A stretch of 64,000 nt of DNA from Arthrobacter sp. 135MFCol5.1. Its GTDB lineage: Bacteria; Actinomycetota; Actinomycetes; Actinomycetales; Micrococcaceae. The stretch spans positions 62,001-126,000 of the forward strand of contig NZ_KB895462.1 of the NCBI RefSeq assembly GCF_000374865.1, written 5' to 3'. Shown here piece after piece: positions 33,595 to 59,062 of the stretch; the stretch's first letter is position 1, and each line of letters starts with the position of its first letter. Under the pieces are notes generated by a model, which was not told where the DNA came from, did no database searches, and saw only the letters and a list, made by a program, of their open reading frames with translations. A program made the position numbers and the translations under genes.

Positions 33595-34786
33595 GGACCA
33601 GCAGGAACGCGTCAACAGCATCGATCCCGGCATCGGCGCCATCGACACCGCCGCCGCCGTCGACGCGGCCGCGCCCGGCACCTCCGCACCCGGCACCTCC
33701 GCTCCCGACACTGGCGCAGACAGGCACCCGCCCACCGGTGCCATGTCCGCCGAGCGCCTCGCCATGAAGGCCCTGGAAGCACGGCTCCTTGGCGGGGAAC
33801 GCAAGCTCCGTCGTCGTGAAGTGGCCGCCGGCGCCGGTCTTTCCCTCCTCTCCGCCCGCAAACTTTGGCGCGCCCTTGGCTTCCCGAACTTTGGCGACGA
33901 AGACGTTGCCTTCACCGAACGCGACCAGGCGGCTCTGTCCACCGTGGTGGACCTGGTCCGCGCCGGCAAACTCACCGAGGAAGCGGCGATTTCAGTCACC
34001 CGGGCAATCGGCCAAATGACGGATCGCATGGTCGTGTGGCAGATCGAGGCGCTGGTGGAGGACATGGTCCACGAACAGGGGGTCACGGACGCCGTGGCCC
34101 GCAAGCGCCTGGTCAACGAACTGCCGGCCCTCGTGGACGCGCTCGAGGAAGTGCTCGTGTACTCATGGCGCCGCCAGCTCAACGCAGGCGTCCAGCGGCT
34201 CGCCGTGCGCGCCGAGGCCGGCCTCCAGGCCAGCGAGGAAGGCCGGGAAGGCGACGAGGACGATGCGCCGCTGCCGCTGGCACGCGCGGTTGGCTTCGCC
34301 GACCTGGTGTCCTACACCAGCCTGTCCCGGCGGATGAACGAAAAAACCCTGGCCCGGCTGGTCCAGCGGTTCGAAAACAAATGCGCTGAAATCATCTCGG
34401 TGGGCGGCGGCCGGCTGGTCAAGACCGTGGGCGATGAAGTCCTGTACATTGCCGAAACACCCGCCGCTGGTGCAGAGATCTCCCTGGCGCTTGCCGAAGC
34501 CTTCACCGCGGACGAAATCCTCCCGGAAGCCCGGGTGGCCATGGTGTGGGGAAGGATCCTGTCCCGCCTCGGTGACATCTACGGCCCCACCGTCAACCTG
34601 GCAGCCAGACTGACCACGCTCGCGGACCCGGGAACCGTGCTGGTGGACTCGATGACCGCCTCCGCCCTGGAGCACGACGAGCGGTTCGTCATGATTCCCC
34701 AGGATCCGGAAAATGTCCGCGGTTTCGGCGAAATCAAACCCGTCCGCCTCACGCGCGGACGCGGCCAGGGTCTGGTCCTGGACTAG
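33584..34786 (+). CDS. Class III adenylyl cyclase with N-terminal HTH-like regulatory domain
   Basis: 400 residues. After a low-complexity Ala/Pro/Ser/Thr tail, residues ~50-130 resemble a MerR-like helical module (LRRREVAAGAGLSLLSARKLWRALGF). The catalytic domain begins at AVGFADLVSYT (metal Asp), then KTVGDEVLY (adenine-specifying Lys and second metal Asp) and GDIYGPTVNLAARL (Asp plus the transition-state Asn and Arg). All key residues are present, so it should make cAMP. The ATG at 33584 has GAAGG about 8 bases upstream; a GTG at 33575 is less well placed. It overlaps the PH-domain gene. Confidence 0.88.
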   Translation: MTDEDQQERVNSIDPGIGAIDTAAAVDAAAPGTSAPGTSAPDTGADRHPPTGAMSAERLAMKALEARLLGGERKLRRREVAAGAGLSLLSARKLWRALGFPNFGDEDVAFTERDQAALSTVVDLVRAGKLTEEAAISVTRAIGQMTDRMVVWQIEALVEDMVHEQGVTDAVARKRLVNELPALVDALEEVLVYSWRRQLNAGVQRLAVRAEAGLQASEEGREGDEDDAPLPLARAVGFADLVSYTSLSRRMNEKTLARLVQRFENKCAEIISVGGGRLVKTVGDEVLYIAETPAAGAEISLALAEAFTADEILPEARVAMVWGRILSRLGDIYGPTVNLAARLTTLADPGTVLVDSMTASALEHDERFVMIPQDPENVRGFGEIKPVRLTRGRGQGLVLD

Positions 34787-34792
34787 GGGCGC

Positions 34793-34808
34793 CACCCGGC
34801 GACGGGTG
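34793..34808 (+). terminator. Small hairpin after the cyclase gene
   Basis: CACCCG-GCGA-CGGGTG stands directly after the cyclase stop at 34786. Weak, short-stemmed. Confidence 0.35.
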
Positions 34809-34831
34809 ACCCGGGGCTGCCCGAAAACAAT

Positions 34832-34862
34832 TTGTCCACTTGTTGGCGGATAGCGGTATGGT
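34832..34862 (+). promoter_or_regulatory. Possible promoter of the first giant surface protein
   Basis: TTGTCC (34832-34837) and TATGGT (34857-34862) are 19 bases apart, a somewhat wide spacing. They are the best sigma-A-like pair in the 144-bp gap before the ATG at 34931. Confidence 0.3.
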
Positions 34863-34930
34863 TGTGATGCCCGGGGTCCTGTGCCACCGGCTGCCGGCAG
34901 GGGCAGAGAGCTATCGGGGGATAACACTTC

Positions 34931-37900
34931 ATGGAACGTCGCGACCAATCGCGCGCTGAAAACCTTGGTTCCGCCATGCCCTCGAAACGCCGGCTGCTGC
35001 GCTCGCGGTGGTCCGCCGGGGCTGCGTTTGGTGTGGTGGTGGCTGTGGTGGTGACGGGTGCGGTGTTGTATCCGGGGTTTAAGACCACTGAGGTTGAGTT
35101 GAATGATGGTGGCGTGTGGGTGGTGTCGAAGTCCAAGAATGCTGTTGGGCGGTTGAATTATCCTTCGCGGGTGCTTGATGGTGCGGTGACGCCGGCGTCG
35201 ACGACGTTTGATGTGTTGCAGCATGCGGGTGAGGTGTTTGTTGATGATGCGACTGGTTCGACGCTGAACCAGGTGTCGCCGGCGAATATGCGCCTGGGTG
35301 GGGATAAGCGGTTGCCGGGTTCTGCTGCGGTGAGTTTTGGGGCGCAGACGATTTCGGTGACGGATCCGGCGTCGGGCAAGGTGTGGGCGGTGTCGCCGTC
35401 GACGGTGAATGGTTTTGATGAGGAAGCGTCGGAGCCTGTCATGGTGGGTTCTGAGGGGATTGTTTCCGCGGTGGGGTCTGATGACCGGATTTATTCGGCG
35501 GATCCGAAGTCCGGGGTGGTGTCCGTGACGGGGGTGGATGCCAATGGTGCGGTGATGTCCTCGGAGTCCAGTACCTGGGAGGGGTTGAAGGGTTCCGGGG
35601 ATCTGCAGATGACGGTGGTGGGGGATAAGCCGGTGGTGTTGGATGCTGCGGCGGGGAACCTGTTCTTGCCCGGCGGTAAGCGGCTGGTGTTGGAGAATGC
35701 GCGGGATGCGAAGTTGCAGCAGGCGGGGCCGGGCAGTGATTTTGTTGCCGTTGCGACGCGGAAGGCGTTGTTGAAGCAGCCCCTGGACGGGGCGGCGGCG
35801 AAGACGGTCTCGTTTGATGGTGAGGGCGTGCCTGCGGCTCCGGTGCAGTTGGGCGGGTGTGTGCATGCGGCGTGGTCGGGTGCGAACAAGTACATCCGGG
35901 ACTGCACCAATGATGCGGATGATAAGAATGTTGCGGTGCCGAAGGCGAGTGCGTCGCCGTCGTATGTGTTCCGGGTGAACCGGGACCTGGTGGTCCTGAA
36001 TGATGTGAATTCGGGCAATGTGTGGCTGGTGAACCAGAACATGCAGCTGGTCAACAACTGGGACGACGTCATCCCGCCGCAACAGACCTCGGACGACGCC
36101 GACAAGGACTCGGCCGATGAGGTGCAGCAGACCGTCCTGCCGGACCGCACCAAACCCAACAACGCCCCCGTGGCCAAACCGGACACCTTTGGCGTGCGCG
36201 CCGGCAAGACCACCGTCCTTCCCGTGCTGGACAACGACTCGGACCCCGACGGCGACGTCCTCACCGTTCGCACGCCCGACCCCCTGAAGTCAGGCCTGCT
36301 CGCGCCGATCTACGGCGCCACCGGGTTCCAGGTCAGCGTCGGCGCCGACAAAACGGGCTCTGAGGCGTTCAAATACACGGTGGACGACGGCCGCGGCCTT
36401 TCCGGTTCCGCCGATGTCACGTTGAACGTCGTCCCGCCGGGGGAGAACTCGGCACCGCGGCAAAAGCCCAACCGCAACACCACCCTGGTGGTGCAGGCAG
36501 GCAAGGTCGTCAGCCAAAACATCCTCACCGATTGGATCGACCCCGACGGCGACGACCTCTTCGTGGTCGGTGCCAGCGGCAGCGACCCCCGCGACCAAGT
36601 CCGGGTCCGGCCTGACGGCCTGCTCAGCTTTCAGGATTCCGGTGCTGAACCGGGACGCAAAACCGTCACCGTCACCGTCTCGGATGGCCGGGCCACCACC
36701 GAGGGAAAGGTCACCGTCGACGTCCGCGCGCCCGGGGCGCTGCCGCCGATCGCCAACGCGGACCACGTCGTCGCCGTCGCCGGGGTGGACACGGTGATCG
36801 CGCCGCTGAAGAACGACTCAGACCCGCAAGGCGGGGCGCTGCGCCTGGCCCAGGCCACCCCGGACGGTAATTCCACCGCCACCATGGGCGCCGACCAACA
36901 AACCTTCACGTTCAATTCCACCGCCGAGGGCGCGCACTACGTCACCTACCTGGCCACCAACGGACCGGCCAGCGCCCAGCAACTGGTGCGTGTCGACGTC
37001 GTGCCCGGGAACGGCGACGGCGCCCCCGTCGCCGTGCGCGACACCGCACTGCTGCCCAGTGGCGGCAACGTGCTGGTGGACGTGCTCGGCAATGACTCCG
37101 ACCCCTCCGGCGGCGTGCTGGTGGTCCAGTCCGTGACGGCCGCGGACGGCCTGCCCATCAGCGTCTCCGTGCTGGACCATTCCGTTGTCCGGATCACCGA
37201 CATCCGCGCCCAGGGCCAGCTCACCGTCAAATACACCATCTCCAACGGCAAAGCCTCGGCCACCGGCGAGATCGCCGTGCTGGTGGTCCCCGCACCGGCG
37301 AAACTCCAGGCCCCCCAGGCCAAGCCGGATGAGGCCACCGTCCGTGCCGGCGACGTCGTCACCATCCCCGTGCTGGCCAACGACACCGATCCCAACGGCG
37401 GCGCCCTCACCCTTGACCCGCAGCTGGCCCAGCAGCCGGACCCGGCGGACGGGCGCATCTTCACGGCAGGCGGAACTGTGCGGTTCATCGCCGGCGACGT
37501 ACCCAAAACCGTCTACGCGATCTACAAGGTCACCAACGAATCAGGCCAGTCCGACTCACAGCAGGTCACGATCCGGATCCGGGCCCGCGACGACCAACTC
37601 AATACCCGGCCAGAACCAAGAAACCTCACCGCCCGGGTGGTGGCGGGCATGACCGTCCGCATCCCGGTACCCCTCGATGGCGTGGACAGCGACGGCGACT
37701 CCGTCCAGCTGACCGGGGTGGACAAGGCTCCCGCCATGGGCACGGCCGTTGTCAAGGACGGCTACCTCGAATTCACCGCAGCGGGCAATGCAGCCGGCAC
37801 TGACACCTTCACCTACCGGGTCCGCGACCGGGTCGGGGCCGAGAACACCGGAACTGTGATCGTCGGCATCGCACCCGCGGAAGCCACCAACCAGAAGCCC

Positions 37901-40900
37901 ATCGCAGTCGACGACGCCATTGAAGTCCGGCCCGGACGCAAGATCGCCGTTGAAGCCCTCGCCAACGATTCAGATCCGGACGGTGACCCGATCACCCTGG
38001 TGTCCAACGGCTTCGAGGCCCGCCCGGACCTCGCCGTGGAGGCAGCCGAAGGCGGCAAGGTGCTGCTCACGGCCCCGAACGCTGCCGGCAATGACAGCGT
38101 CAGCTACAAGATCCAGGACGACAAGAAAGCCCAGTCCGGTGCAGTGATCCGGGTTAAGGCCAGCCCTGATGCCGCACTGAAGGCCCCGGTTGCCAAAGAC
38201 GATGTGGTCACCCCCGCAGAGACGCTGGGCAAGTCCGCCGTGGACGTGCCGGTCCTCAAGAACGACTCAGACCCCGACGGCGTGGCCTCCGAACTGAAGA
38301 TCGGCCTGCCGGACGGGAACCCCAACGCCCGCGTCACCGGCGACGGCACCGTGCGCGTCAGGCTTGGGCCGGCCGACCAGCTGGTTCCCTACACTGTCAC
38401 CGATGTTGACGGCCAAAGCGCGACGGCGGTCATCTGGGTGCCCGGGCAGGGGGAGCAACACCCCACGCTGGCCAAGACCGAGACCGTGGAAGTCATGTCC
38501 GGGAAGGACATTACCCTCAACCTGGCGGACTACGTCCGGGTGCGGGAAGGCCGCACGCCCCGGATCACCCAGGTGGACAGGGTCCGCATCCTGGGCGGGG
38601 AACCGGACAACGTGGTGGCCGGAAACGGCAATGCCCTGCGTTATGCCGCCCTCAAGGACTACGTGGGTCCAGGCTCCATCACCTTCGAGGTGACGGACGG
38701 CACCGGGCCGGACGACCCCGCCGGCCTCAAGTCAACGCTGAGCATCATTACCAAAGTCATCCCGGACCCCAACGCCAACCATCCGCCCACCTTCAGCGGA
38801 GCCACCCTCGACGTTCCCGCCGGCGAGTCGGCCACCCTGGACCTGAGCGACCTGGCCAAGGACGTTGACGCCGGCGACCAGGACAAGCTCGCCTTCGCTC
38901 TCGACGGCGCGCTCCCCGAGGGCTTCAACGCAACAGTGGACAAGGCAACCCTCAAGGTCACCCCCGATTCAGCCCGGGCAGCCGGCTGGAAAGGCAGCAT
39001 CCCGCTCAAAGTCACCGACGGCCGCTCAGATCCGGTCCGCGCCACCATCACCGCCACCGTGGTGGCCTCCAACCGGCCGCTTCCCACAGCCAACGAGGAC
39101 GTGGTGGACAAAGCGAACGCCGGCACGTCCGAGACCGTCAACGTCCTCGCCAACGACTACAACCCCTTCCCGGAGACGCCCCTCAGGATCACCTCCGCCA
39201 CCGTGGAGACCGGATCGGCCGCAGGGCAGCCCGCCGTGGCGGGGGACTCGATCACCGTCACACCGGCCAGCGGGTTCAAAGGCGTGATGGTGGTGCGCTA
39301 CACCATCATGGACAAGACCGGAGACGTATCCCGGCAGACCGACGGACGGGTCCGGATCACCGTCCGTGACCGGCCCGACGCGCCCTCCGCGCCCACGGCC
39401 ACGGATGTCCGGAGCCGGACGGCCGTGCTCAAGTGGACACCGCCGTCGGATAACGGCGCGGCCATCACCAAATACACCGTGCACTCCACCAGCGGCTTCA
39501 GCCAGGAGTGTGCCACCACCACCTGCACGCTGACCGGCCTGACCAACGACGTCAAGTACGTCTTCACCGTCACCGCCACGAACGAGGTCAGGGAATCCGA
39601 CCCGTCGCCGGCCTCCAATGAGATCCGGCCGGACGAAAAGCCGTCGCCGCCGGACGCGCCTGCCGTCAAGGCCGGCGACAAGACCATGGAAATCACGTGG
39701 CCGACAGCCAAAACCGAGGGTTCGGCCGTCAAGAACTACAACCTTGAGATCTCACCGCCGCCCGCGAATGGGGCGGCGGTCAAGAACGGCGTGACCGGGC
39801 TGAACTACACCTGGCCCGGGCTGACCAACGGCGTCCGGTACAAGGTGCGCGCCCAGGCAGTCAACGAACTGGGCCCCTCAGACTGGAGCCCGTACTCCGC
39901 CGAGGACAATCCTGCCGGTGTCCCCGCCGCACCCGCCGCTCCGACGTCGTCCGTGGCATCTTCCGTGGGAACCTCGAACCAGCTCAAGGTGGACTGGAAC
40001 GAGCCAAACACCAACGGTGACGCCATCAGGAACTACTACGTCACCATGAGCGGCGGCGGCGGGGCAGCCCAAACCCAGATGGTGGCCGGCACCGTCCGGA
40101 CAGCCAACTTCACCGCCAACAACTCCGAAGCGGCCTACACCTTCACCGTGCAGGCCGAGAACAAGGCCGGGAAGGGCGCGGTCAGTGCGGCGTCCGCCCC
40201 GCGCCGCGCCACCGGCAAGCTCGCGCAAGTCTCCGGCGTGAGCGCCACGGAAGCCAACACCGGCGGAGCCGGGCGCTCCGTCACCATCGACTTCCGCGAA
40301 CTTACCGCCGCCGAACGCAACGGCTCAACGTACGCCGAAGTCAGCTACACCTACCGGGCCAGCACGGGACAGGCCGGTCCGATCAGGCCAGGGCAAACCG
40401 TCGGAGGATTCGCCAACGGCAGTTCCACGGCCATCACCGTCATCGCCAACTCTTCGGTGGCCCCCAGTTCCGACGCCAGCACGCCGGCCACCGCCAACCC
40501 GTACGGTTCTCCTGGCACGCCGTCGGCCGCCGGGCAGGACGGCGCGGAGAACCAGAAGAACCTCACCTTGAGCTGGGCATCCCCGGCGGCGGGCAGCCAC
40601 GACATCGCCTACACCCAGATCAGGATCGACGGCGGGGGCTGGGAACGGGTGGCTGCCTCCGGCAACCGCACCATCAACACCGCCGGATTCAACGAGCGGC
40701 ATTCGATCGACGTACAAACGGTCAATTCGCGCGGCACCGGTGGCCCGGTCGCGTCTGCCTCCGCGCAGTCGGGTGCCGCGAAAACCCGTTGGACCACGCG
40801 GCTTGGTCCCGGCATGGACCGCAGCTGCACCGACCTGCCCGGCGCCACGTCATATGACCCGTCGAGGAATACCTGCGATGGCCAAGGCGGCTACGACCGG

Positions 40901-41104
40901 CCCTGGATGTCGCACCTGGACACGTTCGATGTCATGTGCTGGAAGCCGCACGGCACCACATACAGCGGAGACGGACAGTGGTACTACATCATGCGCGGCT
41001 CGCCCAACGCCACCCGCTGGATCCAGTCGCTGCACACCACCCTGGGCTCTCCCGCGCAAAGCGGTGTACCGCTGTGCACCTTCCCGACAGGGGCAACGCC
41101 ATAG
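34931..41104 (+). CDS. Giant membrane-anchored Ig/cadherin-like and FN3 repeat surface protein, copy 1
   Basis: 2,057 residues. Basic N-tail, one membrane helix (~29-48), then a region of ~345 residues rich in short hydrophobic strands (GGVWVVSKSKNAVGRL; GNVWLVNQN), probably a beta-propeller. From ~410 to ~1,483 follow about 11 Ig/cadherin-like repeats marked by variants of VLxNDSDPDGDxLT; from ~1,485 to ~1,945 come about five FN3-like units; a Cys-bearing C-terminal domain ends the chain. No LPxTG motif is present, so anchoring is by the N-terminal helix with the body outside. GGGGGA lies about 9-11 bases before the ATG. It is paired with a homologue just downstream. Likely an adhesin or cell-surface scaffold; partner unknown. 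Confidence 0.85.
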   Translation: MERRDQSRAENLGSAMPSKRRLLRSRWSAGAAFGVVVAVVVTGAVLYPGFKTTEVELNDGGVWVVSKSKNAVGRLNYPSRVLDGAVTPASTTFDVLQHAGEVFVDDATGSTLNQVSPANMRLGGDKRLPGSAAVSFGAQTISVTDPASGKVWAVSPSTVNGFDEEASEPVMVGSEGIVSAVGSDDRIYSADPKSGVVSVTGVDANGAVMSSESSTWEGLKGSGDLQMTVVGDKPVVLDAAAGNLFLPGGKRLVLENARDAKLQQAGPGSDFVAVATRKALLKQPLDGAAAKTVSFDGEGVPAAPVQLGGCVHAAWSGANKYIRDCTNDADDKNVAVPKASASPSYVFRVNRDLVVLNDVNSGNVWLVNQNMQLVNNWDDVIPPQQTSDDADKDSADEVQQTVLPDRTKPNNAPVAKPDTFGVRAGKTTVLPVLDNDSDPDGDVLTVRTPDPLKSGLLAPIYGATGFQVSVGADKTGSEAFKYTVDDGRGLSGSADVTLNVVPPGENSAPRQKPNRNTTLVVQAGKVVSQNILTDWIDPDGDDLFVVGASGSDPRDQVRVRPDGLLSFQDSGAEPGRKTVTVTVSDGRATTEGKVTVDVRAPGALPPIANADHVVAVAGVDTVIAPLKNDSDPQGGALRLAQATPDGNSTATMGADQQTFTFNSTAEGAHYVTYLATNGPASAQQLVRVDVVPGNGDGAPVAVRDTALLPSGGNVLVDVLGNDSDPSGGVLVVQSVTAADGLPISVSVLDHSVVRITDIRAQGQLTVKYTISNGKASATGEIAVLVVPAPAKLQAPQAKPDEATVRAGDVVTIPVLANDTDPNGGALTLDPQLAQQPDPADGRIFTAGGTVRFIAGDVPKTVYAIYKVTNESGQSDSQQVTIRIRARDDQLNTRPEPRNLTARVVAGMTVRIPVPLDGVDSDGDSVQLTGVDKAPAMGTAVVKDGYLEFTAAGNAAGTDTFTYRVRDRVGAENTGTVIVGIAPAEATNQKPIAVDDAIEVRPGRKIAVEALANDSDPDGDPITLVSNGFEARPDLAVEAAEGGKVLLTAPNAAGNDSVSYKIQDDKKAQSGAVIRVKASPDAALKAPVAKDDVVTPAETLGKSAVDVPVLKNDSDPDGVASELKIGLPDGNPNARVTGDGTVRVRLGPADQLVPYTVTDVDGQSATAVIWVPGQGEQHPTLAKTETVEVMSGKDITLNLADYVRVREGRTPRITQVDRVRILGGEPDNVVAGNGNALRYAALKDYVGPGSITFEVTDGTGPDDPAGLKSTLSIITKVIPDPNANHPPTFSGATLDVPAGESATLDLSDLAKDVDAGDQDKLAFALDGALPEGFNATVDKATLKVTPDSARAAGWKGSIPLKVTDGRSDPVRATITATVVASNRPLPTANEDVVDKANAGTSETVNVLANDYNPFPETPLRITSATVETGSAAGQPAVAGDSITVTPASGFKGVMVVRYTIMDKTGDVSRQTDGRVRITVRDRPDAPSAPTATDVRSRTAVLKWTPPSDNGAAITKYTVHSTSGFSQECATTTCTLTGLTNDVKYVFTVTATNEVRESDPSPASNEIRPDEKPSPPDAPAVKAGDKTMEITWPTAKTEGSAVKNYNLEISPPPANGAAVKNGVTGLNYTWPGLTNGVRYKVRAQAVNELGPSDWSPYSAEDNPAGVPAAPAAPTSSVASSVGTSNQLKVDWNEPNTNGDAIRNYYVTMSGGGGAAQTQMVAGTVRTANFTANNSEAAYTFTVQAENKAGKGAVSAASAPRRATGKLAQVSGVSATEANTGGAGRSVTIDFRELTAAERNGSTYAEVSYTYRASTGQAGPIRPGQTVGGFANGSSTAITVIANSSVAPSSDASTPATANPYGSPGTPSAAGQDGAENQKNLTLSWASPAAGSHDIAYTQIRIDGGGWERVAASGNRTINTAGFNERHSIDVQTVNSRGTGGPVASASAQSGAAKTRWTTRLGPGMDRSCTDLPGATSYDPSRNTCDGQGGYDRPWMSHLDTFDVMCWKPHGTTYSGDGQWYYIMRGSPNATRWIQSLHTTLGSPAQSGVPLCTFPTGATP
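35015..36078 (+). repeat. Near-identical 1.06-kb block, copy A (matches 41328-42391)
   Basis: This block covers the membrane helix and propeller-like region of giant protein 1. It aligns without gaps at a fixed offset of 6,313 bases to the second giant gene. Encoded residues are nearly identical; outside the block the proteins are clearly diverged. Third codon positions here are mainly G or T, while flanking DNA prefers C. Confidence 0.85.
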
Positions 41105-41273
41105 CCGCCGCGGCGCCGGGCAAGTGCCCCGGAATGAGCGGTACACGGGATAGAGGTCCCCATCGCGGGGTCTTGCGGGGCTTCGGTAGGCTTGGCCCGG
41201 GGAAAGAAAGCCTACTGCCTGTCCCGCGAACAGGACCGTATCTGGCAACACAATCTGAGGGAAAAGTAACGCT

Positions 41274-44200
41274 GTGACAACTCTGCTGGGGAAGCTTGGG
41301 CTGAAGAAGCGACACAAGAAGGCCGCCGCCGGGACTGCGTTTGGTGTGGCGGTGGCAGTGGTGGTGACCGGTGCGGTGTTGTACCCGGGGTTCAAGACCA
41401 CTGAGGTTGAGCTGAACGATGGCGGCGTGTGGGTGGTGTCAAAGTCCAAGAACGCTGTTGGGCGGTTGAATTATCCTTCGCGGGTGCTTGATGGTGCTGT
41501 GACGCCGGCGTCCACCACGTTTGATGTGTTGCAGCATGCAGGCGAGGTGTTTGTTGACGACGCGACCGGTTCGACGCTGAACCAGGTGTCCCCGGCGAAT
41601 ATGCGCCTGGGTGGAGACAAGCAGCTGCCGGGTTCTGCTGCGGTGAGTTTTGGTGCGCAGACAATTTCGGTGACGGATCCGGCGTCGGGCAAGGTCTGGG
41701 CCGTGTCGCCATCGACGGTGAATGGTTTTGATGAGGAAGCATCGGAGCCCGTCATGGTGGGTTCTGAGGGGATTGTTTCCGCGGTGGGGTCTGATGACCG
41801 GATTTATTCGGCGGACCCGAAGTCCGGCGTGGTGTCCGTGACGGGGGTGGATGCCAATGGCGCGGTGACGTCGTCGGAGTCCAGTACCTGGGAGGGGCTT
41901 AAGGGTTCCGGCGATCTGCAGATGACGGTGGTGGGGGATAAGCCGGTGGTGTTGGATGCTGCGGCGGGGAACCTGTTCTTGCCCGGCGGTAAGCGGCTGG
42001 TGTTGGAGAATGCGCGGGATGCGAAGTTGCAGCAGTCAGGGCCGGGCAGTGATTTTGTTGCCGTTGCGACGCGGAAGGCGTTGTTGAAGCAGCCCCTGGA
42101 CGGGGCGACGGCGAAGACGGTCTCGTTCGATGGTGAGGGCGTGCCTGCGGCTCCGGTGCAGTTGGGCGGGTGTGTGCACGCGGCGTGGTCGGGAGCCAAC
42201 AAGTACATCCGGGACTGCACCAATGATGCGGATGACAAGAATGTTGCGGTGCCGAAGGCGAGTGCGTCGCCGTCGTATGTGTTCCGGGTGAACCGGGACC
42301 TGGTGGTCCTGAATGATGTGAATTCGGGCAACGTGTGGCTGGTGAACCAGAACATGCAGCTGGTCAACAACTGGGACGACGTCGTCCCGCCCAAGAACCA
42401 GTCCGATGACCAGGACCAGGAATCGGCGGACAACAACACCATCAACGTCCTGCCTGACCGCACTAAACCCAACCGGCCACCGGAAACCAAGCCCGACGCC
42501 ATCGGCGTCCGGCCTGGACGCACTACGATCCTCAGCGTCCTGGACAACGACTCGGACCCCGACGGCGACGTCCTGACCGCTGCCGTGGCGCCGGAAGCCG
42601 CACCCAAATCGGGCACCCTCGAAAGCATCTACGGCGGCACTGCCTTCCAGATCACCGTTCCGGCGGATGCCAAACCAGGCACTGAGACCTTTAACTACAG
42701 CGCCTCCGACGGCCGCGGGCTCTCCGCCACCGGGCAGGTCACGCTCAGCGTTGTGGGGCCTGACGAAAACAAGCCGCCCAAGTTCAAGCGCGGCGAGGAC
42801 ACCACCATGCTGGTGGAGCAGGGCAAGACGGTCAGCCAGAACATCCTGACGGACTGGATCGACCCCGACGGCGATGATCTGGTCCTCCTCGACGCGAAGG
42901 CCGACAACGACCAGGACCAGGTCAAGGTCCGGCGCGACGGCCTGCTCACCTTCCAGGATTCCGGTGCGACCGCCGGCAAGAAGAACGTCCAGGTCACCAT
43001 CTGGGACGGCCGCGCCACGGTCACCGGCAAGGTGGTGGTCAACGTCCAGCCCCCCGGCGCCCTGGCGCCGGTGGTCAACGCGGACCATGTCACCGCCGTC
43101 GTGGGCCAGGACCTGGTCATCTCGCCGTTGAAGAACGACGTCGACCCGAACGGCGGTGCCCTCCGGCTGGCCCAGGTGGAAGCCAACGGACCGGCCGAAC
43201 TCGGGCCCGTCACGGACGGCGGCACCTTCACGTTCCGCAGCAGCACCCCCGGGCCGGTGTACCTGACGTACATTGCCAGCAACGGGCCGCAGAGCAGCCA
43301 GGGGCTGATCCGTGTCGACGTCGAATCCGGCAACGACGGCGGCGATCCCGTCGCGGTCCACGACGTGGCACTGATGCCCACCGGCGGCAGTGTCCTGCTG
43401 GACCCCCTGGCCAATGACTCCGACCCCTCCGGCGGCGTCCTGGTGCTGCAGTCCGTCAAAATCCCGGACAACGCCCCGGTATCGGTCAGCGTGATCAACC
43501 ACAGCGTCCTGCGGATCACCGACATCCTGGGTACCAAGGACCCCCTGATGTTCGAATACACCATGTCCAACGGCAAGAAATCCGCCACGGGCAGTGTCTC
43601 GGTCGTGCCCGTGCCGGCGCCGGCCGTGCTCGAAGCACCCCAGCCCAAACCGGACGAGGTGAACGTCCGGGTCAACGACGTCGTCACCATTCCCGTCCTT
43701 GACAACGACACCCACCCGCAGGGGCAGGAACTGACCGTGGACCCCGTCCTGCCGCAGGCCGTGGACCCGGCTGACGGCAAGAGCTTCGTTTCCGAGAACA
43801 CCGTCCGCTTTATTGCCGGCAGCCAGCCCAAGACGGTGCGCGCCATCTACAACGCCGTCGATCCGCAGGGCCAGAAGAGTGCCGCCGCGGTGACCATCCA
43901 CATCCTTCCCCTGGAAGGTGCGGAGAATTCCCGGCCCCAGCCGCGGAACCTTACCGCCCGGGTGGTGGCTGCCGGGACGGTCCGGATCCCGGTTCCCCTC
44001 GACGGCATCGACCCCGACGGCGACTCCGTCCAGCTCACGGGCATCGACAGCACCCCCGCCATGGGCACCGCGACGGTAGGCAGCAACTTCATCGACTTCA
44101 CGGCGGCCGGCGACGGCGCCGGTACGGACACGTTCCGCTACAAGGTGGTTGACCGCCAGGGTGCCGTGAACACAGGCACCGTAACAGTTGGCATCGCCCC

Positions 44201-47200
44201 GCGCGGAGAGGTGAACCAGAAGCCCACGCCCGTGGACGACGAAGTCCGGGTCCGTCCCGGCCGCCAGATCGCCGTCGACGCCACCGCTAACGACACCGAT
44301 CCCGACGGCGACCGCATCCGCATCCTCACCGACGGCATCGAAGCCGATCCCGCACTCCAGGCGACAGTCAGCAGGAACAGCGGCCGCATCATCCTCCTGG
44401 CCCCGAACGAGGCAGGAACCGTCAACGTGCGCTACACCATCGCCGATGACCGGGACGCCACCGCCCAGGCCACCATCCGCCTGGTCGTCGATAACAACGT
44501 GCCCCTGAAGGCGCCGATCGCCCGTGACGACAGGGTGACCTCAGCCCAGGCAATGGGCAAGACCGCCGTCGACGTCCCGGTCCTGAAGAATGACGAGGAC
44601 CCGGACGGCGTGGGCGAGAACCTCAAGATCAGCACGGAGGCCACCACCGCCAGGCCCGGCGGCAACGGCAATGTCCTGGTAGACCTGACCAAGGATCCCC
44701 AGCTCATCCCGTACACCGTGGAAGACGTGGACGGACTGCAGTCCACCGCGGTCATCTGGGTACCGGGCCTCGGCCAGCAGGTTCCCACCCTGGCCAAGGA
44801 CGACGTCATCGAGGTGGTAGCGGGCCAGTCCGTCGACGTAAACCTCAACGAATGGGTAAAGGTCCGCGAGGGCAGGTCGCCCCGGCTGACCCAGGCGGAC
44901 CGGATCAAGCTCATCGGCGCCGACGGCGGCAACCCCGTCATTGGCGACGGCACCGGCCTGAAATACACCGCGGGAACAGACTACGTGGGCCCCGGGTCCC
45001 TGACGTTCGAGGTGACGGACGGAACCGGACCGGACGATCCCGCCGGCCTGAAGTCCACCCTCAGCATCCGCACCAAGGTGCTTCCGGACCCCAACAAGAA
45101 CAACCCGCCCGAGCTGCTTGGCTCGGACGTGGACGTTCCCAAGGGCGACACTGCCAGCACGGACCTGGGCAAGCTGACTTCCGATCCGGACCAGGGCGAC
45201 CTCGAAAAGATGAAGTATGAACTGGTGGGCGGAGCGCCCGGCGGCTTCAACGTCAGCATCGACGGCAAGACCCTGAAGGCTTCGGCGGCGGACTCCACCG
45301 CCACCGGGACCAGGGCCGCCGTCCAGGTCAAGGCCAGGGATCCGCGCGGGCTTGAGGCAACGGCCACGTACCAGCTTTCGGTGACCGCCTCGAACCGGCC
45401 CAAGCCGGTGGCCAACGACGACGTCGAAGCGAACGCCGCCGCGGGCAAGCCCGTCACCATCAACGTGCTCGCCAACGACGCCAACCCGTTCCCGGAGACC
45501 CCGCTGAAGATCATTGCCGCAAACACCGAAACGGGCACCGGCAACGTAGGCGTCAATGGCGACTCGGTGACCGTCACTCCGGCGCCCGGTTTTACCGGGA
45601 CCATGGTGGTGGCCTACACCGTGGAGGACAAGACCGGTGACGCGTCCCGGCATGCCACGGCGCGCATCCGCTTGACCGTCAAGGACAAGCCCGCGGCCCC
45701 CACCACGGCGCAGGCACAGAGCGTGGGTGACCGCACGGCGCTGCTAAACTGGACCGCCCCGGCCGACAGGGGCTCGCCCATCACCAAGTACACGGTGTAT
45801 GGCGAGGGCGGGTTCCGCCAGGATTGCCCGGCCAACACCTGCACCCTTAATGGCCTGACCAACAACACCACCTACCACTTCCAGGTGACGGCCACGAACG
45901 AGTTCGGCGAGTCCGACCGCTCGCCGGCCTCGGCCGATGTCCGGCCGGACGTGAAGCCGGATACCCCTTTGGCGCCCTCGCTGAAATTTGGCGACAAGCA
46001 GCTGACCGTCAACTGGACCCAGCCCGCCAGCAAGGGATCGCCGGTGAAGTCCTACGACCTGGAAATCTCGCCGGCACCGGCAGGCCAGAACGCACAGATC
46101 CAGGGCCTGACGTCGGTCAGCTATGTCTGGAAGGGGCTGCAGAACGGCGTTTCCTACAAGGTCCGGGTCCTGGCACGCAACGACGCCAAGGAACCCTCCG
46201 AATGGAGCCCGTACTCGGCAGCGGAGGTGCCCGCGGGTGTTCCCGCGACGCCCACCGCGCCGAGCGTGTCGCAGGCAACTCCGGTGGGCTCGCAGAGCCA
46301 GCTGCGGGTGGTCTGGTCCGCGCCGAACAACAATGGTGACCCTGTCTCGTCCTACACCTTGACCACCCTCCGCGGCGGTGCGGCGGTGGCCAGCCAGCAG
46401 GTATCCGGAACGTCGCAGAACGTCACCGTGGATAATTCGGAAACGAACTACACCTTCACGGTCTCGGCCACCAACAAGGCCGGAACAGGCGGCACGAGTG
46501 CCCAGTCCGCCCCCATCCGGGCAGCAGGCAAACCGGGCCAGGTGAGCAGCGGGACAGTCGCGGAAACGGGAACCAGCGGACAGCTGAAAGTGACGTTCAC
46601 GCCGCTGAGCGAGGCGCAGCGGAACGGGTCCACCGCGAGTGAAATGACCTATTCGTACAACGCTGACGGCAAGAGCGGCCCGATCCCAGCCGGCGGTGGA
46701 ACCATCGGCGGCATGACCAACGGCAGGGACATCACGGTGACCATCATCGCGACGTCCACGAAAAACACCATGTCCGGCGATGCCAAGGCGATCGGGACAG
46801 CCAACCCGTATGGGCCGGCAAGCGCCCCCAACGTCAACGGCACCACGTCAACGAAGGGCGACGGCCAGGTGCACTGGACCTGGAACGATCCGAGCACGAA
46901 CGGCCGGCCCCTGAGCTACTACGAGGTCAGTTACGAGGGCGGTGGCTGGGTCAACGTTGGAAAGGCCAACCGCTTTGACCGCGACGCTGGTGGCTGGAAC
47001 CAAAGCCGTCAGTTGCGGGTTCGGGCGGTCACGGTGACCGACGGCGCGATCGGGTCGGCCACCTCCAAGTCCGGTGCAGACCCAACCCCGCCGCCGCCCA
47101 CGGAGTGGAACGTCACGGCCAGCCCCACACGCAGCTGCACGGAGCCTCGCAAGGGGACGGACAGCTTCGTTGACGGCAACCCGTCCCAATGCACGGGCGC

Positions 47201-47384
47201 GGGCAAATGGCTCGACGCCGGTGCCCCGTCCACGGCCGACCGCTACCAGGTCTGGTACAAGACCTCGAACAACCCCAGCGGTATCTGGTACCACCTGAAC
47301 TCGGGTATGGCCTCGGGCAACTGGCTCCGCTGTGACACGTCCAACGTCGGCTGCAACCCGCCGAACGGCATGCCGAACCGCTAG
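41274..47384 (+). CDS. Giant membrane-anchored Ig/cadherin-like and FN3 repeat surface protein, copy 2
   Basis: 2,036 residues; start GTG at 41274 with GAGGGA about 10 bases upstream. It has the same order of parts as copy 1: basic tail (GLKKRHKKAAAG), membrane helix ~19-38, propeller-like region to ~385, about 11 Ig/cadherin-like repeats (VLDNDSDPDGDVLTA; VLDNDTHPQGQELTV; VLANDANPFPETPLK), FN3-like units from ~1,475, and a C-terminal domain with Cys pairs (RSCTEP; WLRCDTSNVGC). The N-terminal ~350 residues are almost identical to copy 1, the rest is only moderately similar. It is 169 bp downstream of copy 1 and directly before the moxR gene, so it matches the position of the fn3 gene in bifidobacterial PFNA clusters. 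Confidence 0.85.
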   Translation: MTTLLGKLGLKKRHKKAAAGTAFGVAVAVVVTGAVLYPGFKTTEVELNDGGVWVVSKSKNAVGRLNYPSRVLDGAVTPASTTFDVLQHAGEVFVDDATGSTLNQVSPANMRLGGDKQLPGSAAVSFGAQTISVTDPASGKVWAVSPSTVNGFDEEASEPVMVGSEGIVSAVGSDDRIYSADPKSGVVSVTGVDANGAVTSSESSTWEGLKGSGDLQMTVVGDKPVVLDAAAGNLFLPGGKRLVLENARDAKLQQSGPGSDFVAVATRKALLKQPLDGATAKTVSFDGEGVPAAPVQLGGCVHAAWSGANKYIRDCTNDADDKNVAVPKASASPSYVFRVNRDLVVLNDVNSGNVWLVNQNMQLVNNWDDVVPPKNQSDDQDQESADNNTINVLPDRTKPNRPPETKPDAIGVRPGRTTILSVLDNDSDPDGDVLTAAVAPEAAPKSGTLESIYGGTAFQITVPADAKPGTETFNYSASDGRGLSATGQVTLSVVGPDENKPPKFKRGEDTTMLVEQGKTVSQNILTDWIDPDGDDLVLLDAKADNDQDQVKVRRDGLLTFQDSGATAGKKNVQVTIWDGRATVTGKVVVNVQPPGALAPVVNADHVTAVVGQDLVISPLKNDVDPNGGALRLAQVEANGPAELGPVTDGGTFTFRSSTPGPVYLTYIASNGPQSSQGLIRVDVESGNDGGDPVAVHDVALMPTGGSVLLDPLANDSDPSGGVLVLQSVKIPDNAPVSVSVINHSVLRITDILGTKDPLMFEYTMSNGKKSATGSVSVVPVPAPAVLEAPQPKPDEVNVRVNDVVTIPVLDNDTHPQGQELTVDPVLPQAVDPADGKSFVSENTVRFIAGSQPKTVRAIYNAVDPQGQKSAAAVTIHILPLEGAENSRPQPRNLTARVVAAGTVRIPVPLDGIDPDGDSVQLTGIDSTPAMGTATVGSNFIDFTAAGDGAGTDTFRYKVVDRQGAVNTGTVTVGIAPRGEVNQKPTPVDDEVRVRPGRQIAVDATANDTDPDGDRIRILTDGIEADPALQATVSRNSGRIILLAPNEAGTVNVRYTIADDRDATAQATIRLVVDNNVPLKAPIARDDRVTSAQAMGKTAVDVPVLKNDEDPDGVGENLKISTEATTARPGGNGNVLVDLTKDPQLIPYTVEDVDGLQSTAVIWVPGLGQQVPTLAKDDVIEVVAGQSVDVNLNEWVKVREGRSPRLTQADRIKLIGADGGNPVIGDGTGLKYTAGTDYVGPGSLTFEVTDGTGPDDPAGLKSTLSIRTKVLPDPNKNNPPELLGSDVDVPKGDTASTDLGKLTSDPDQGDLEKMKYELVGGAPGGFNVSIDGKTLKASAADSTATGTRAAVQVKARDPRGLEATATYQLSVTASNRPKPVANDDVEANAAAGKPVTINVLANDANPFPETPLKIIAANTETGTGNVGVNGDSVTVTPAPGFTGTMVVAYTVEDKTGDASRHATARIRLTVKDKPAAPTTAQAQSVGDRTALLNWTAPADRGSPITKYTVYGEGGFRQDCPANTCTLNGLTNNTTYHFQVTATNEFGESDRSPASADVRPDVKPDTPLAPSLKFGDKQLTVNWTQPASKGSPVKSYDLEISPAPAGQNAQIQGLTSVSYVWKGLQNGVSYKVRVLARNDAKEPSEWSPYSAAEVPAGVPATPTAPSVSQATPVGSQSQLRVVWSAPNNNGDPVSSYTLTTLRGGAAVASQQVSGTSQNVTVDNSETNYTFTVSATNKAGTGGTSAQSAPIRAAGKPGQVSSGTVAETGTSGQLKVTFTPLSEAQRNGSTASEMTYSYNADGKSGPIPAGGGTIGGMTNGRDITVTIIATSTKNTMSGDAKAIGTANPYGPASAPNVNGTTSTKGDGQVHWTWNDPSTNGRPLSYYEVSYEGGGWVNVGKANRFDRDAGGWNQSRQLRVRAVTVTDGAIGSATSKSGADPTPPPPTEWNVTASPTRSCTEPRKGTDSFVDGNPSQCTGAGKWLDAGAPSTADRYQVWYKTSNNPSGIWYHLNSGMASGNWLRCDTSNVGCNPPNGMPNR
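41328..42391 (+). repeat. Near-identical 1.06-kb block, copy B (matches 35015-36078)
   Basis: Second copy of the shared block. Differences from copy A are scattered and mostly synonymous, with a few substitutions (Arg to Gln, Met to Thr, Ala to Ser). It has regained some C-ending codons, so it is less extreme in codon style than copy A. Confidence 0.85.
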
Positions 47385-47462: not shown

Positions 47463-48434
47463 ATGACCATGACCATGGAGCAGGCCGAATGGTTTGCCGG
47501 TACGTTCGAAAAGCTGGTTGCCAACGTGGGGCAGGCGGTGCTGGGCAAGGAACACGTCATCAGGCTGACCTTCACGGCCATGCTGGCCGAGGGCCACGTC
47601 TTGTTCGAGGACGCGCCCGGAACCGGCAAGACCTCCCTGGCCCGGGCCCTCGCGGCCACCGTGCAGGGGTCCAACAACCGCATCCAGTTCACCCCTGACT
47701 TGCTTCCTTCCGACGTCACCGGCGTGACCATCTACGACCAGAAGACGCAGAAGTTCGAGTTCCACAAGGGCCCGATCTTCAACAACATCGTCCTGGCCGA
47801 CGAAATCAACCGTGCCTCGCCCAAGACCCAGTCCGCGCTGCTTGAGGTCATGGAAGAGTCACGGGTCACCGTGGACGGCGTGACCTACTCCGCCGGCCGG
47901 CCGTTCATGGTCATGGCAACCCAGAACCCGATCGAGCAGGCGGGTACCTACCGCCTCCCCGAAGCCCAGCTGGACCGGTTCCTGATCAAGACCTCCATCG
48001 GGTATCCGGACCACGCCTCCACGGTCCGTCTGCTCGGCGGCAACAACCTGAAGGACCGCTCCAAGGAACTCTCCGCCGTCATCACCACCCAGGCCGTGGC
48101 GGACATGGCAGACCTCGCCGCCACCGCGCACGTGGACACCGCGGTGCTGGAGTACATTTCGCGGCTGTGCGAGGAAACCCGCAGCGCCCCCGAGACCCGG
48201 CTGGGCGTGTCCGTGCGCGGCGCGCTGGCCATGGTCCGGGCCGCCAAGGTCTGGGCTGCCTCGCAGGGACGGAACTTCGTCCTGCCGGATGACATCAAGG
48301 AACTGGCACCCGTGGTGTGGACGCACCGGTTCGTGATGGACCCTGAGGCGGAATTCTCCGGCGCCACCGCAGAGGCCGTCCTGGCCAGGATCCTGGCCGA
48401 CGTCGCCGCCCCGCAGCAGCGCACCAACGCCTGA
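47463..48434 (+). CDS. MoxR-family AAA+ ATPase
   Basis: 323 residues. Walker A APGTGKTS (51-58), Walker B VLADEINRA with Asp113 and Glu114, and the MoxR-specific ATQNPIEQAGTYRLPEAQLDRF segment are intact. MoxR ATPases act as chaperones that help assemble or activate protein complexes, usually with a DUF58 partner, which is encoded next. AAGGA is about 11 bases before the ATG at 47463; ATGs at 47469 and 47475 are alternatives. Here it may help fold or install the giant surface proteins or the membrane proteins of the operon. Confidence 0.93.
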   Translation: MTMTMEQAEWFAGTFEKLVANVGQAVLGKEHVIRLTFTAMLAEGHVLFEDAPGTGKTSLARALAATVQGSNNRIQFTPDLLPSDVTGVTIYDQKTQKFEFHKGPIFNNIVLADEINRASPKTQSALLEVMEESRVTVDGVTYSAGRPFMVMATQNPIEQAGTYRLPEAQLDRFLIKTSIGYPDHASTVRLLGGNNLKDRSKELSAVITTQAVADMADLAATAHVDTAVLEYISRLCEETRSAPETRLGVSVRGALAMVRAAKVWAASQGRNFVLPDDIKELAPVVWTHRFVMDPEAEFSGATAEAVLARILADVAAPQQRTNA

Positions 48435-48508
48435 CCGGTCCGGCGCGCAACCAACGGCTGCACGCCGGCCCCTTTTCCTTTCCACCGCAACAACGAAGGC
48501 ACACCCAC

Positions 48509-49852
48509 ATGTCCGACGGCACGTCCACCGGCACCCCGTTGACCCGGTTCGCGGAGCGGTTCCGGCTCCTTTTCCACCGGAACGGCCGCCCCACCCGCCT
48601 GCACCCTGCAGCGGTGTGGTCTGAAGCCAGCAACACGGCCCTCCTTGCCCTTACCCCGGCCTGGCGGACCATCCGGACCACCTGGCTGACGTACGTTTGG
48701 CCGGTGCTGTCCGTGGTCAGCATCCTGGGCTGGTCCGTCCTCGCCGCCTCGGTCCTGCTGTGGATTACCGGCCAGGCGTTCGGCTGGCAGGAAGCCACGG
48801 CAGCCGCCATCGCCGCCTTCGCCATGTTCGTGATCGCGGTCGCCTTCATCCTCGGCCGGTCCTCCTATGGCGTGGTCCTGGACCTTGCCCGGACCCGCGT
48901 GGCGGTGGGGGACAGCGCCGTCGGAAGCATCGCCGTCTCCAATACTTCCGCCCGGCCGCTGCTGCCAGCCGCGCTGGAACTTCCGGTGGGCAGCACCACC
49001 GCCGTGTTCCACCTGCCCAGGATGAAGCCAGGCCAGGTCCACGAGGACCTCTTCACCATCCCCACCGCCCGGCGCGCCGTCATCGTGGTGGGACCGGTCC
49101 GCTCCGTCCGGGCCGACCCGCTGCACCTCCTGCGCCGGCAGGTCCTCTGGACCGAGCCGGAAGACCTGTTCGTGCATCCCCGGACCGTAGCCCTGGCCGG
49201 TTCGGCGGCGGGCTTCATCCGCGACCTGGAGGGCATGCCAACCACGGACCTGTCCAGCGCCGACGTCTCCTTCCACGCCCTGCGCGACTACGTGCCCGGG
49301 GACGACCGCAGGCACATCCACTGGAAGACCACCGCCCGGACCAACAAGCTGATGGTACGCCAGTTCGAGGAAACCCGCCGCGCCCACCTGGCCATATCGC
49401 TGTCCATCAACACGGAGGAATACGCCTCCGAGAACGAATTCGAGCTGGCTATCTCGGTGGCAGGGTCCATCGGCCGGCAGGCCATCCGCGAACAGCGGGA
49501 ACTGGACGTCCTCACCCAGAAAGGCCCGCTGCGCTGCGAAACCGGCCGCAACCTGTTGGATGACATGACCCGGATCGTCGGCGCCCCGATGCGCCGCACC
49601 GCCGTCGACCTTGCCCGGACCCTGGCGGACACCGTCCCCAACGCGTCCGTGGTGTTCTTCGTGGTGGGAAGCAACGTGACCGCCACCCAGCTCCGCTCCG
49701 CAGCCGCTTCCGTCCCGCCGGGAGTCCGCAGCCTGGCCGTCCGGGTGGAAGCCGGCGCAGCGCCCACCCGGGCCAACATCGCAGACCTGACCGTCCTGAC
49801 CCTCGGCGACCTGGCCGACCTTGCCATCGTGCTGAGAAAGGCCGCCGCATGA
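48509..49852 (+). CDS. DUF58 membrane protein, MoxR partner
   Basis: 447 residues. Two membrane helices lie at ~65-115 (SVVSILGWSVLAASVLLW and AAIAAFAMFVIAVAFILG). The signature DUF58 motif, YVPGDDRRHIHWKTTARTNKL, occurs near residue 265-285 (given here in part: GDDRRHIHWKTTAR). The C-terminal part has a von-Willebrand-like fold in the family. It pairs with the MoxR ATPase just before it and overlaps the next gene by 4 bases (ATGA). Confidence 0.9.
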   Translation: MSDGTSTGTPLTRFAERFRLLFHRNGRPTRLHPAAVWSEASNTALLALTPAWRTIRTTWLTYVWPVLSVVSILGWSVLAASVLLWITGQAFGWQEATAAAIAAFAMFVIAVAFILGRSSYGVVLDLARTRVAVGDSAVGSIAVSNTSARPLLPAALELPVGSTTAVFHLPRMKPGQVHEDLFTIPTARRAVIVVGPVRSVRADPLHLLRRQVLWTEPEDLFVHPRTVALAGSAAGFIRDLEGMPTTDLSSADVSFHALRDYVPGDDRRHIHWKTTARTNKLMVRQFEETRRAHLAISLSINTEEYASENEFELAISVAGSIGRQAIREQRELDVLTQKGPLRCETGRNLLDDMTRIVGAPMRRTAVDLARTLADTVPNASVVFFVVGSNVTATQLRSAAASVPPGVRSLAVRVEAGAAPTRANIADLTVLTLGDLADLAIVLRKAAA

Positions 49853-54344: not shown

Positions 54345-55276
54345 ACCAGCACCCCGCCAGTGTTTCCTCCACCATCCAGCCGGGGCCGGGCCTTAGCCTC
54401 ACCTACGGCTACGGGACGGACAGGGGACTCCGCAGGGAGCTGAACGAGGATTCCTACATTGCGGCGGATCCCGTCTTCGCGGTGGCCGACGGCATGGGCG
54501 GCCACGAGGCCGGCGAGATCGCCAGCGGCCTGTGCGTAAGGGCCTTGGCCGGGATTCCGCAGCTCGCCACCGGTGAGCGGAGCATTACGGCCGCGGTCCT
54601 GCAGCAGTACCTTGTGCGGGCGGACAACTCGATCCGTGAGGCCGCGGGAGCCCGCGCCGGCACCACCCTCACGGGCGCGGTGGTGGTGGAACAGATGGGC
54701 ATGCCGTACTGGCTGGTGCTGAACATCGGCGACTCCCGCACCTACCGGCTCAGCCAGGGCCGGTTCGAGCAGATCAGCGTGGACCACTCAGAGGTCCAGG
54801 AACTCGTTGATGCGGGCGAGATCACCGCCCAGGAAGCCACCGTGCATCCCCGCCGGCACGTGGTCACCCGGGCCCTGGGCACGGGGGATGAGACGGAGGC
54901 TGACTACTGGCTCCTCCCAGTCGAGGAAGGAGACCGGGTCCTGGTCTGCTCGGACGGGCTGACCGGTGAACTGGCGGACGAGGACATCCTCCGCATCCTC
55001 AGCACCGTGGCCCAACCGCAGGACGCCGTGGACGCCCTGATCCAGGCTGCCCTGCGCAGCGGCGGCAGGGACAACGTCACGGCCATCGTGGTGGACGCCA
55101 AGAACGTGGCGAACGACGACGGCGCCGGCACCACCGCGCCACGCTACAGCCCGGCGGACCGGGACGAGGAGACGCTGCCGCGTCCGCTGGCCAACGGCGC
55201 GGTGACGCAGCCCTTGCCTGAGCAGCCGGAGGCCGGCACGGACGCCGAGGGGGAGGGCGACAATGACCGCCGCTAG
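54341..55276 (+). CDS. PP2C-family Ser/Thr phosphatase
   Basis: 311 residues. Metal ligands and signatures of PP2C are all present: RRELNEDSY (Asp37), VADGMGGHE (Asp50), GDSRTYR, SDGLT and GGRDNVT. It should remove phosphate from targets of the Ser/Thr kinase two genes on. No membrane segment is seen, so it is cytoplasmic. It starts with an ATGA overlap with the RDD/FHA gene and overlaps the next gene by 14 bases. Confidence 0.95.
   Translation: MNQHPASVSSTIQPGPGLSLTYGYGTDRGLRRELNEDSYIAADPVFAVADGMGGHEAGEIASGLCVRALAGIPQLATGERSITAAVLQQYLVRADNSIREAAGARAGTTLTGAVVVEQMGMPYWLVLNIGDSRTYRLSQGRFEQISVDHSEVQELVDAGEITAQEATVHPRRHVVTRALGTGDETEADYWLLPVEEGDRVLVCSDGLTGELADEDILRILSTVAQPQDAVDALIQAALRSGGRDNVTAIVVDAKNVANDDGAGTTAPRYSPADRDEETLPRPLANGAVTQPLPEQPEAGTDAEGEGDNDRR

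Positions 55277-57307: not shown

Positions 57308-57311
<4 letters not shown>
55263..57311 (+). CDS. Zinc-ribbon/FHA protein with long acidic Pro/Ala linker
   Basis: 682 residues; ATG at 55263 with GGGGGAGGG upstream. The N-terminal ~145 residues form a globular domain of unknown type (SWLGVVRSGTAVLLGPE). Residues ~150-530 are a disordered Ala/Pro/Glu/Asp linker with a 12-residue duplication (VVVESVVA twice). The C-terminus has a zinc ribbon (CAQGHANPPTRALCSACGG) and an FHA domain (VIGRQPSV, SRSHVEV, TNGTVLV). It probably scaffolds phosphorylated partners of the kinase, whose gene overlaps its stop (TTGA). Confidence 0.82.
55821..55877 (+). repeat. Duplicated 21-bp segment in the linker of the FHA protein
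   Basis: The same 21 bases (starting GTCGTCGAAAGCGTGG) occur at 55821-55841 and 55857-55877, 36 bases apart, coding VVESVVA twice. Confidence 0.7.

Positions 57312-59062
<1,751 letters not shown>

Follow-up and report, generated by a model that had tools for sequence, protein, structure and literature searches.

Here, we describe a pair of tandem giant genes in a 64,000-nucleotide stretch of Arthrobacter sp. 135MFCol5.1 (contig NZ_KB895462.1, positions 62,001 to 126,000; hereafter the window, in whose own numbering all positions are given). Gene A (34931..41104, + strand) and its tandem paralogue gene B (41274..47384, + strand) share a homogenised block that encodes the end of a transmembrane (TM) helix and a propeller-like region. 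We put at roughly 70% the probability that recurrent ectopic gene conversion with a directional bias toward keto bases operates between the two genes. That the block is converted, and that conversion is tied to its base make-up, is established by comparison of aligned sequences, and the bias itself we infer from base make-up and turnover. The tandem genes would swap the propeller block again and again, alleles whose coding strand carries a keto base (G or T) would tend to prevail over those carrying an amino base (A or C) wherever A and B differ, and a converted stretch would turn keto-rich with time and drift back once the partner is lost or conversion stops. The codon style of the block and its homogenisation appear to be one phenomenon, in which the style follows conversion.

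The block of A (35013..36070, +; delimited by identity bins and base make-up) and that of B (41326..42383, +; delimited in addition by difference tracts and turnover) align without a gap at an offset of 6,313 nucleotides. A first-pass annotation of this DNA had reported such an alignment with some 350 near-identical residues. Indeed, 346 of the 352 residues are identical, with 6 residue changes and 40 further synonymous changes over the 352 codons. At this offset all 60-nucleotide bins from 35051 to 36070 hold 54-60 identical positions out of 60, and identity drops off on both sides of the block. The annotation also described third codon positions of copy A as nearly free of C (about 2 in some 58 codons) and an abrupt switch to a C-rich Ig part near 36070, and both observations hold: C occupies 3 of 60 third positions in codons 60-119 of gene A (35111-35290), 11 of 60 in codons 300-359 and 30 of 60 in codons 360-419, and 24-40 per 60 in the full bins beyond codon 419. 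The style is, however, better described as a depletion of both amino bases and an enrichment of both keto bases on the coding strand, with G+C barely changed. Block A has a GC skew of +0.37 and an AT skew of -0.23, against -0.11 and +0.23 in the remainder of the gene. Ranked by keto skew over both strands, the top five 1-kb windows of the 64 kb begin at 34701-35101, and the next one is block B, at 41301. The skew of block B, which has partly drifted back to amino bases, is weaker (keto fraction 0.619 vs 0.659 in block A).

Are the copies more alike within than between genomes, a comparison that the annotation had proposed? We read the loci of 100 Arthrobacter-type genomes, the window's own included, drawn from the best-ranked matches of two surveys, which found the block in at least 48 of 61 and at least 150 of 193 genus genomes; the two sets overlap, their lists are ranked by likeness to the window, and Paenarthrobacter-like genomes are under-sampled. 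Among these were 54 genus pairs, from which G026 and G058 (81 and 17 comparable codons) were dropped to leave 52. A and B fall apart in a tree of the Ig parts. For 104 of 104 genes the closest Ig part belongs to a gene of the same type, and for none is it that of the own partner; the Ig parts of A-B pairs within a genome share on average only 0.51 of their residues, in line with the annotated divergence of the giant genes outside the block. By contrast, the nearest block is that of the own partner in 73 of the 104 genes. This is the pattern that defines concerted evolution: the copies are more alike within than between genomes although they were duplicated earlier.

The base make-up of the block follows this homogenisation. 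Pooled over the 4-fold sites of the 36 pairs with at least 95% block identity (72 genes), the block contains A 0.008, C 0.155, G 0.670 and T 0.168, compared with A 0.067, C 0.529, G 0.334 and T 0.070 in the rest of the same genes, i.e. the keto/amino odds are 7.6-fold higher in the block, while G+C at these sites (GC4) is 0.824 in the block vs 0.862 in the rest. The leucine codon TTG has a share of 0.50 in the block, against 0.04 in the rest. The shift is also seen at codon position 1 (keto 0.654 in homogenised blocks vs 0.568 in unhomogenised pairs) and in the protein, in which, compared with unhomogenised blocks, Val and Gly are more frequent and Ile, Lys, Thr and Asn less so; a cause acting on synonymous sites only does not produce such a shift. 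The keto excess, i.e. the keto fraction of the block minus that of the rest at 4-fold sites, is 0.24-0.55 in the 36 pairs just mentioned, 0.19-0.49 in 7 pairs with 85-95% block identity, 0.08-0.15 in 2 pairs with 78% and -0.12 to -0.03 in 7 pairs with less than 70%. Over the 52 pairs it correlates with A-B block identity (Spearman 0.69), and 16 of 19 phylogenetically independent contrasts agree (p 0.004). Three extra genus pairs outside the 52 (G135, G080, G171) are in agreement with them. The codon style thus differs within the family, one of the outcomes that the annotation had asked about, and appears where the copies show present or apparently recent homogenisation.

The same relation is found inside single genes. 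The TM segment is homogenised in some genomes and diverged in others, and its A-B identity correlates with its keto fraction (rho 0.84 in 38 pairs, uncorrected for relatedness). In G052, G055 and G038 the near-identical blocks reach a keto fraction of 0.92-0.93, compared with 0.30-0.38 in their diverged TM segments. Two mosaics, G027 and G020, have keto fractions of 0.42/0.48 and 0.57/0.40 in their diverged parts vs 0.97 and 0.86 where the copies are identical. Tracts with such sharp edges are one-sided in both, as in G124, where all 37 differing codons lie in the first 80. A position-corrected test within the block was positive in 10 of 13 pairs (Stouffer Z 5.05). The A genes of G013 (locus L039) and G049 (L052) carry a B-like tail, so that conversion tracts can extend beyond the TM helix toward the gene start.

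Genes that have lost a partner are informative as well. The body of the gene is B-type in 43 of the 44 single-gene genomes and A-type in the remaining one (G119). Seven (G003, G007, G009, G071, G098, G183, G193) combine an A-type tail with a B-type body and, judged from their sequences, look like A/B crossover fusions within the blocks. These seven retain a keto excess of 0.33-0.49 (mean 0.40), against a mean of 0.19 in 35 other B-type singles (p 3e-4). Eight genomes counted as single have an unplaced second match (G074, G091, G113, G120, G150, G159, G185, G193), with no second copy within about 7 kb on either side of the gene; without these and G002, the means are 0.42 (n=6) and 0.23 (n=27; p 0.001). 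A comparison of flanks, which typed 106 of 106 pair flanks correctly, gave a composite flank for many of the other singles, A-type further upstream and B-type adjoining the gene. Overall, the keto excess of single-copy genes is lower than that of homogenised pairs, and some non-fusion singles keep a high excess of up to 0.46.

Beyond the genus, we searched 297 genomes of the order and read seven tandem pairs from the best-ranked matches. The clearest case is G356, a member of another family with several homogenised islands: its keto fraction at 4-fold sites (keto4) is 0.75 at a copy identity of at least 93% and 0.50 below 80% (rho 0.57, p 3e-8), GC4 shows no trend with identity (rho 0.06), and no rise is seen at the corresponding positions of three single-copy relatives (0.47 and 0.46). 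A weak positive trend is present in G452 (rho 0.30 and 0.26), and G233, G378, G417 and G485 contain no window at 93% identity. In the genus of G356 (149 genomes searched) another 13 genomes, each carrying two to four copies in tandem, were read, and 9 of these have at most one window of at least 93% identity and are hence uninformative; G875, G872 and G929 show no clear trend of keto with identity (for G872, three of the four copies were compared). The giant gene is present in three tandem copies in G929 (L219) and in four in G872 (L220-L221). A class-wide search of 393 genomes returned no new tandem pair outside the order.

Several observations weigh against biased conversion as the explanation. 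Three of the 19 contrasts oppose it, one of them a tie at two decimals, and the genus may have gained the style in a single ancestral event. Within the block, three of the 13 pairs (G035, G006, G057) run opposite. A is depleted more than C (the C/A ratio is up 2.5-fold), a difference not expected from an even keto/amino filter. The block diverges more than the rest, with a ratio above 1, in the closest comparisons (n=3 among homogenised pairs, n=2 among single genes). Finally, G448 has about 150 identical codons without a keto excess, and G878 has six converted 50-codon windows with a keto fraction of 0.46, again without an excess. Converted islands that lack the excess mean that identity alone is insufficient, and we suppose that repeated conversion over time is needed for the shift.

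The alternative that survives best, although we consider it unlikely, reverses the causality: RecA or another pairing protein would prefer G/T-rich strands, so that keto-rich DNA is more recombinogenic and such alleles enrich themselves, with no role for a repair enzyme such as NucS (see below). The co-occurrence of keto richness and homogenisation fits this idea, and TGG repeats are reported as preferred RecA binding sequences in the part of PMC3763553 considered here. However, TGG is not enriched in the blocks (820 seen vs 825 expected in synonymous shuffles), no Chi-like word stands out in 23 blocks, keto richness declines in single-copy genes, and G448 and G878 are partly homogenised without it. 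Words of 3, 6 and 8 bases in the 23 blocks, compared with synonymous shuffles, gave only sites apparently shared by descent, and 13 G-quadruplex motifs were counted in 23 kb vs 6.8 in shuffles.

Less likely still is a mutational origin, in which recombination leaves the coding strand single-stranded and deamination of C and A, or bypass of lost bases, generates amino-to-keto mutations. The directions C to T and A to G would fit deamination, the shift at codon position 1 would fit such an origin, and so would the raised block divergence in the closest pairs. Yet the chief gain is G at the expense of C (pooled G rises from 0.33 to 0.67, T from 0.07 to 0.17), and the remaining C residues show no single deaminase-like context, C being most retained before A. 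By our own estimate from the base frequencies, mutation linked to conversion would raise silent turnover about twofold and biased fixation would lower it. The observed silent turnover (p4), expressed as block over rest, has ratios of 0.67-0.76 in the five homogenised-pair bins above 0.1 and of 0.70-1.17 in the bins for the other classes, i.e. in most bins like or below the rest; the pairs are not independent. Apart from the few closest comparisons, silent turnover is not raised, which favours biased fixation over hypermutation.

Two further origins were offered by the first-pass annotation beside gene conversion, and neither finds support here, unlike conversion. Selective constraint on the codons or on the mRNA structure near the start of the giant mRNAs would fit the position of the block near the 5' end and its conservation as protein, but the edges of the style move with A-B identity between genomes and inside single genes, which such selection does not explain; moreover, unhomogenised and many single-copy orthologues lack the style, the G356 islands reach far into the Ig part, and replacement sites shift too, which makes this cause very improbable. 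Import from a foreign source, suggested by the abrupt edges and unusual base make-up, can be dismissed almost entirely, as homologous blocks of graded base make-up occupy the same gene across the genus and order and their edges vary between genomes.

What could impose a keto bias on conversion? NucS may be the agent, although we would put the odds somewhat below even. NucS/EndoMS is described, in the parts of the literature cited here, as a mismatch repair system and as a barrier to recombination of unlike DNA (PMC5290159, PMC11551767, PMC11551744, PMC8228993); in M. smegmatis it is reported to repair G-G, G-T and T-T mismatches only (PMC11551744). NucS is also reported to reduce recombination between sequences of 90% identity tenfold (PMC5290159), and in Haloferax a nucS deletion is reported to impair gene conversion (PMC11276520). 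During ectopic conversion, NucS would act on G-G, G-T and T-T at the expense of the incoming base and ignore other mismatches. An incoming A or C allele would then form a keto-keto mismatch and be rejected, and an incoming G or T allele would form an amino-amino mismatch and be accepted. For a gene that runs with the fork the lagging-strand template is the coding strand, so that accepted changes would be amino to keto. Searches with working controls found NucS in 19 of 19 genomes (the window's own and 18 relatives, G356 not among them) and MutS, the target searched rather than MutL, in none of the 19. In all 21 genus genomes examined for it, the locus runs in the direction of replication, as judged from dnaA and the gene positions with the terminus assumed opposite. 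Among the genomes examined, we found no homogenised pair on the opposed strand and met no nucS-less genome. It is possible, as a more tentative generalisation, that the narrow mismatch menu of NucS turns fork-linked ectopic recombination into a G/T drive on the leading-strand sense, at silent and replacement sites alike, in the repeated genes of actinobacteria and possibly also of archaea that carry NucS.

The two blocks of the window differ in an asymmetric manner: 39 of 40 amino/keto differences have the keto base in A and the amino base in B. The same lean is found in G099 (37 to 2), lesser leans in G020 (50 to 26) and G189 (5 to 15), and no significant lean in the remaining pairs. At the 44 window differences the outgroups side with A in 38 cases and with B in 4, with 2 ties, which means that block B has drifted and block A hardly. 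Plain conversion would have carried the changes of B over into A. Under a keto filter, the asymmetry would follow if conversion ran mainly from B to A, with A accepting only keto changes and B never being corrected. As part of the proposed NucS drive, and with similar reserve, one copy could therefore stay keto-pure while its donor drifts, as here (39 to 1) and in G099. The asymmetry could also have other causes.

Biased gene conversion is chiefly known for its effect on G+C. In GC-biased gene conversion, conversion shifts the base make-up of silent and replacement sites where recombination is frequent, and the giant genes may resemble this in both classes of site. Here, however, it is G plus T on one strand that is favoured, and G+C is not raised where conversion is frequent, either in the genus or in G356, which does not fit GC-biased gene conversion proper. 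In the concerted evolution of duplicated bacterial genes, conversion keeps the copies alike within a genome; the present case differs in that homogenisation affects a single domain of a 2000-residue protein and is accompanied by a directional base change. The cited passages on NucS/EndoMS concern the same class of organisms and mismatches whose choice agrees with the keto direction, but describe no conversion bias, and the link to a bias is our suggestion. Likewise, titles and abstract openings of the open-access literature gave no description of keto-biased gene conversion. At the converting vls locus of Borrelia, a GC skew is reported as unexplained but probably selected; as far as the cited text goes, the AT skew is near zero in most rows, G+C is raised, and silent cassettes create variation (PMC11499132). 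In the window, by contrast, both keto bases are up and G+C is not, and two expressed-looking genes with full open frames are made alike rather than varied in the block, which led us to reject vls-like cassettes for antigenic variation.

If true, this reading would join two separate facts, the narrow mismatch menu of NucS and a strand skew at a converting locus. A strand-specific keto form of biased conversion would be a further non-adaptive genome drive, able to change protein sequence and to mimic codon selection or foreign origin, and keto skew would serve as a sequence sign of long-lasting ectopic recombination. It predicts opposite skews on the two replication strands and a loss of skew without nucS.

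Both giant genes are open frames, of 2057 (A) and 2036 (B) residues, with repeats named by Pfam and NCBIfam. Gene A consists of a tail, a TM helix, the propeller-like block and a long Big_9/cadherin/fn3 array, and gene B is built in the same way. By identity bins, the A-type N-terminal tail (34931..35012, +), the marker of the crossover fusions in relatives, lies outside the homogenised stretch, and the B-type tail spans 41274..41325 (+). The Ig/cadherin/fn3 parts of A (36071..41101, +) and B (42384..47381, +) have an ordinary C-rich codon style. A Pfam search gave no name for the block. A partial AlphaFold2 model (pTM 0.68, mean pLDDT 65, about 90 in the middle) supports the propeller-like region of the annotation: the best PDB matches are mostly beta-propellers, NHL, Pizza and virginiamycin-lyase among them.

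Contigs stop inside or at the block in the drafts G014, G037, G046, G109, G110 and G111, as expected if assemblers collapse identical copies, so that pairs are undercounted; G110, whose contig ends at the block, was excluded from the single-copy tests. In L048 (G058), L061 (G026), L091 (G128) and L094 (G161) one of the two genes seems disrupted, either by separation of the block from the body or by a stop or frame break, which may be real or an assembly error. A third, distant paralogue with a block 46-50% identical is found elsewhere in the genome in G002 (L063), G013, G020, G036 and G049, and that of G002 has an ordinary codon style. Neither the pair tests nor the single tests include G128 and G161, with their broken second gene, or the third paralogue of G002.

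Downstream of gene B, a run of genes (47463-59062) encodes MoxR-type ATPase, DUF58, TgpA-type transglutaminase, RDD, PP2C, FHA and Ser/Thr kinase domains, and perhaps forms one system with the giant proteins. A further long open frame of at least 1383 residues (59852-64000) runs off the end of the window.

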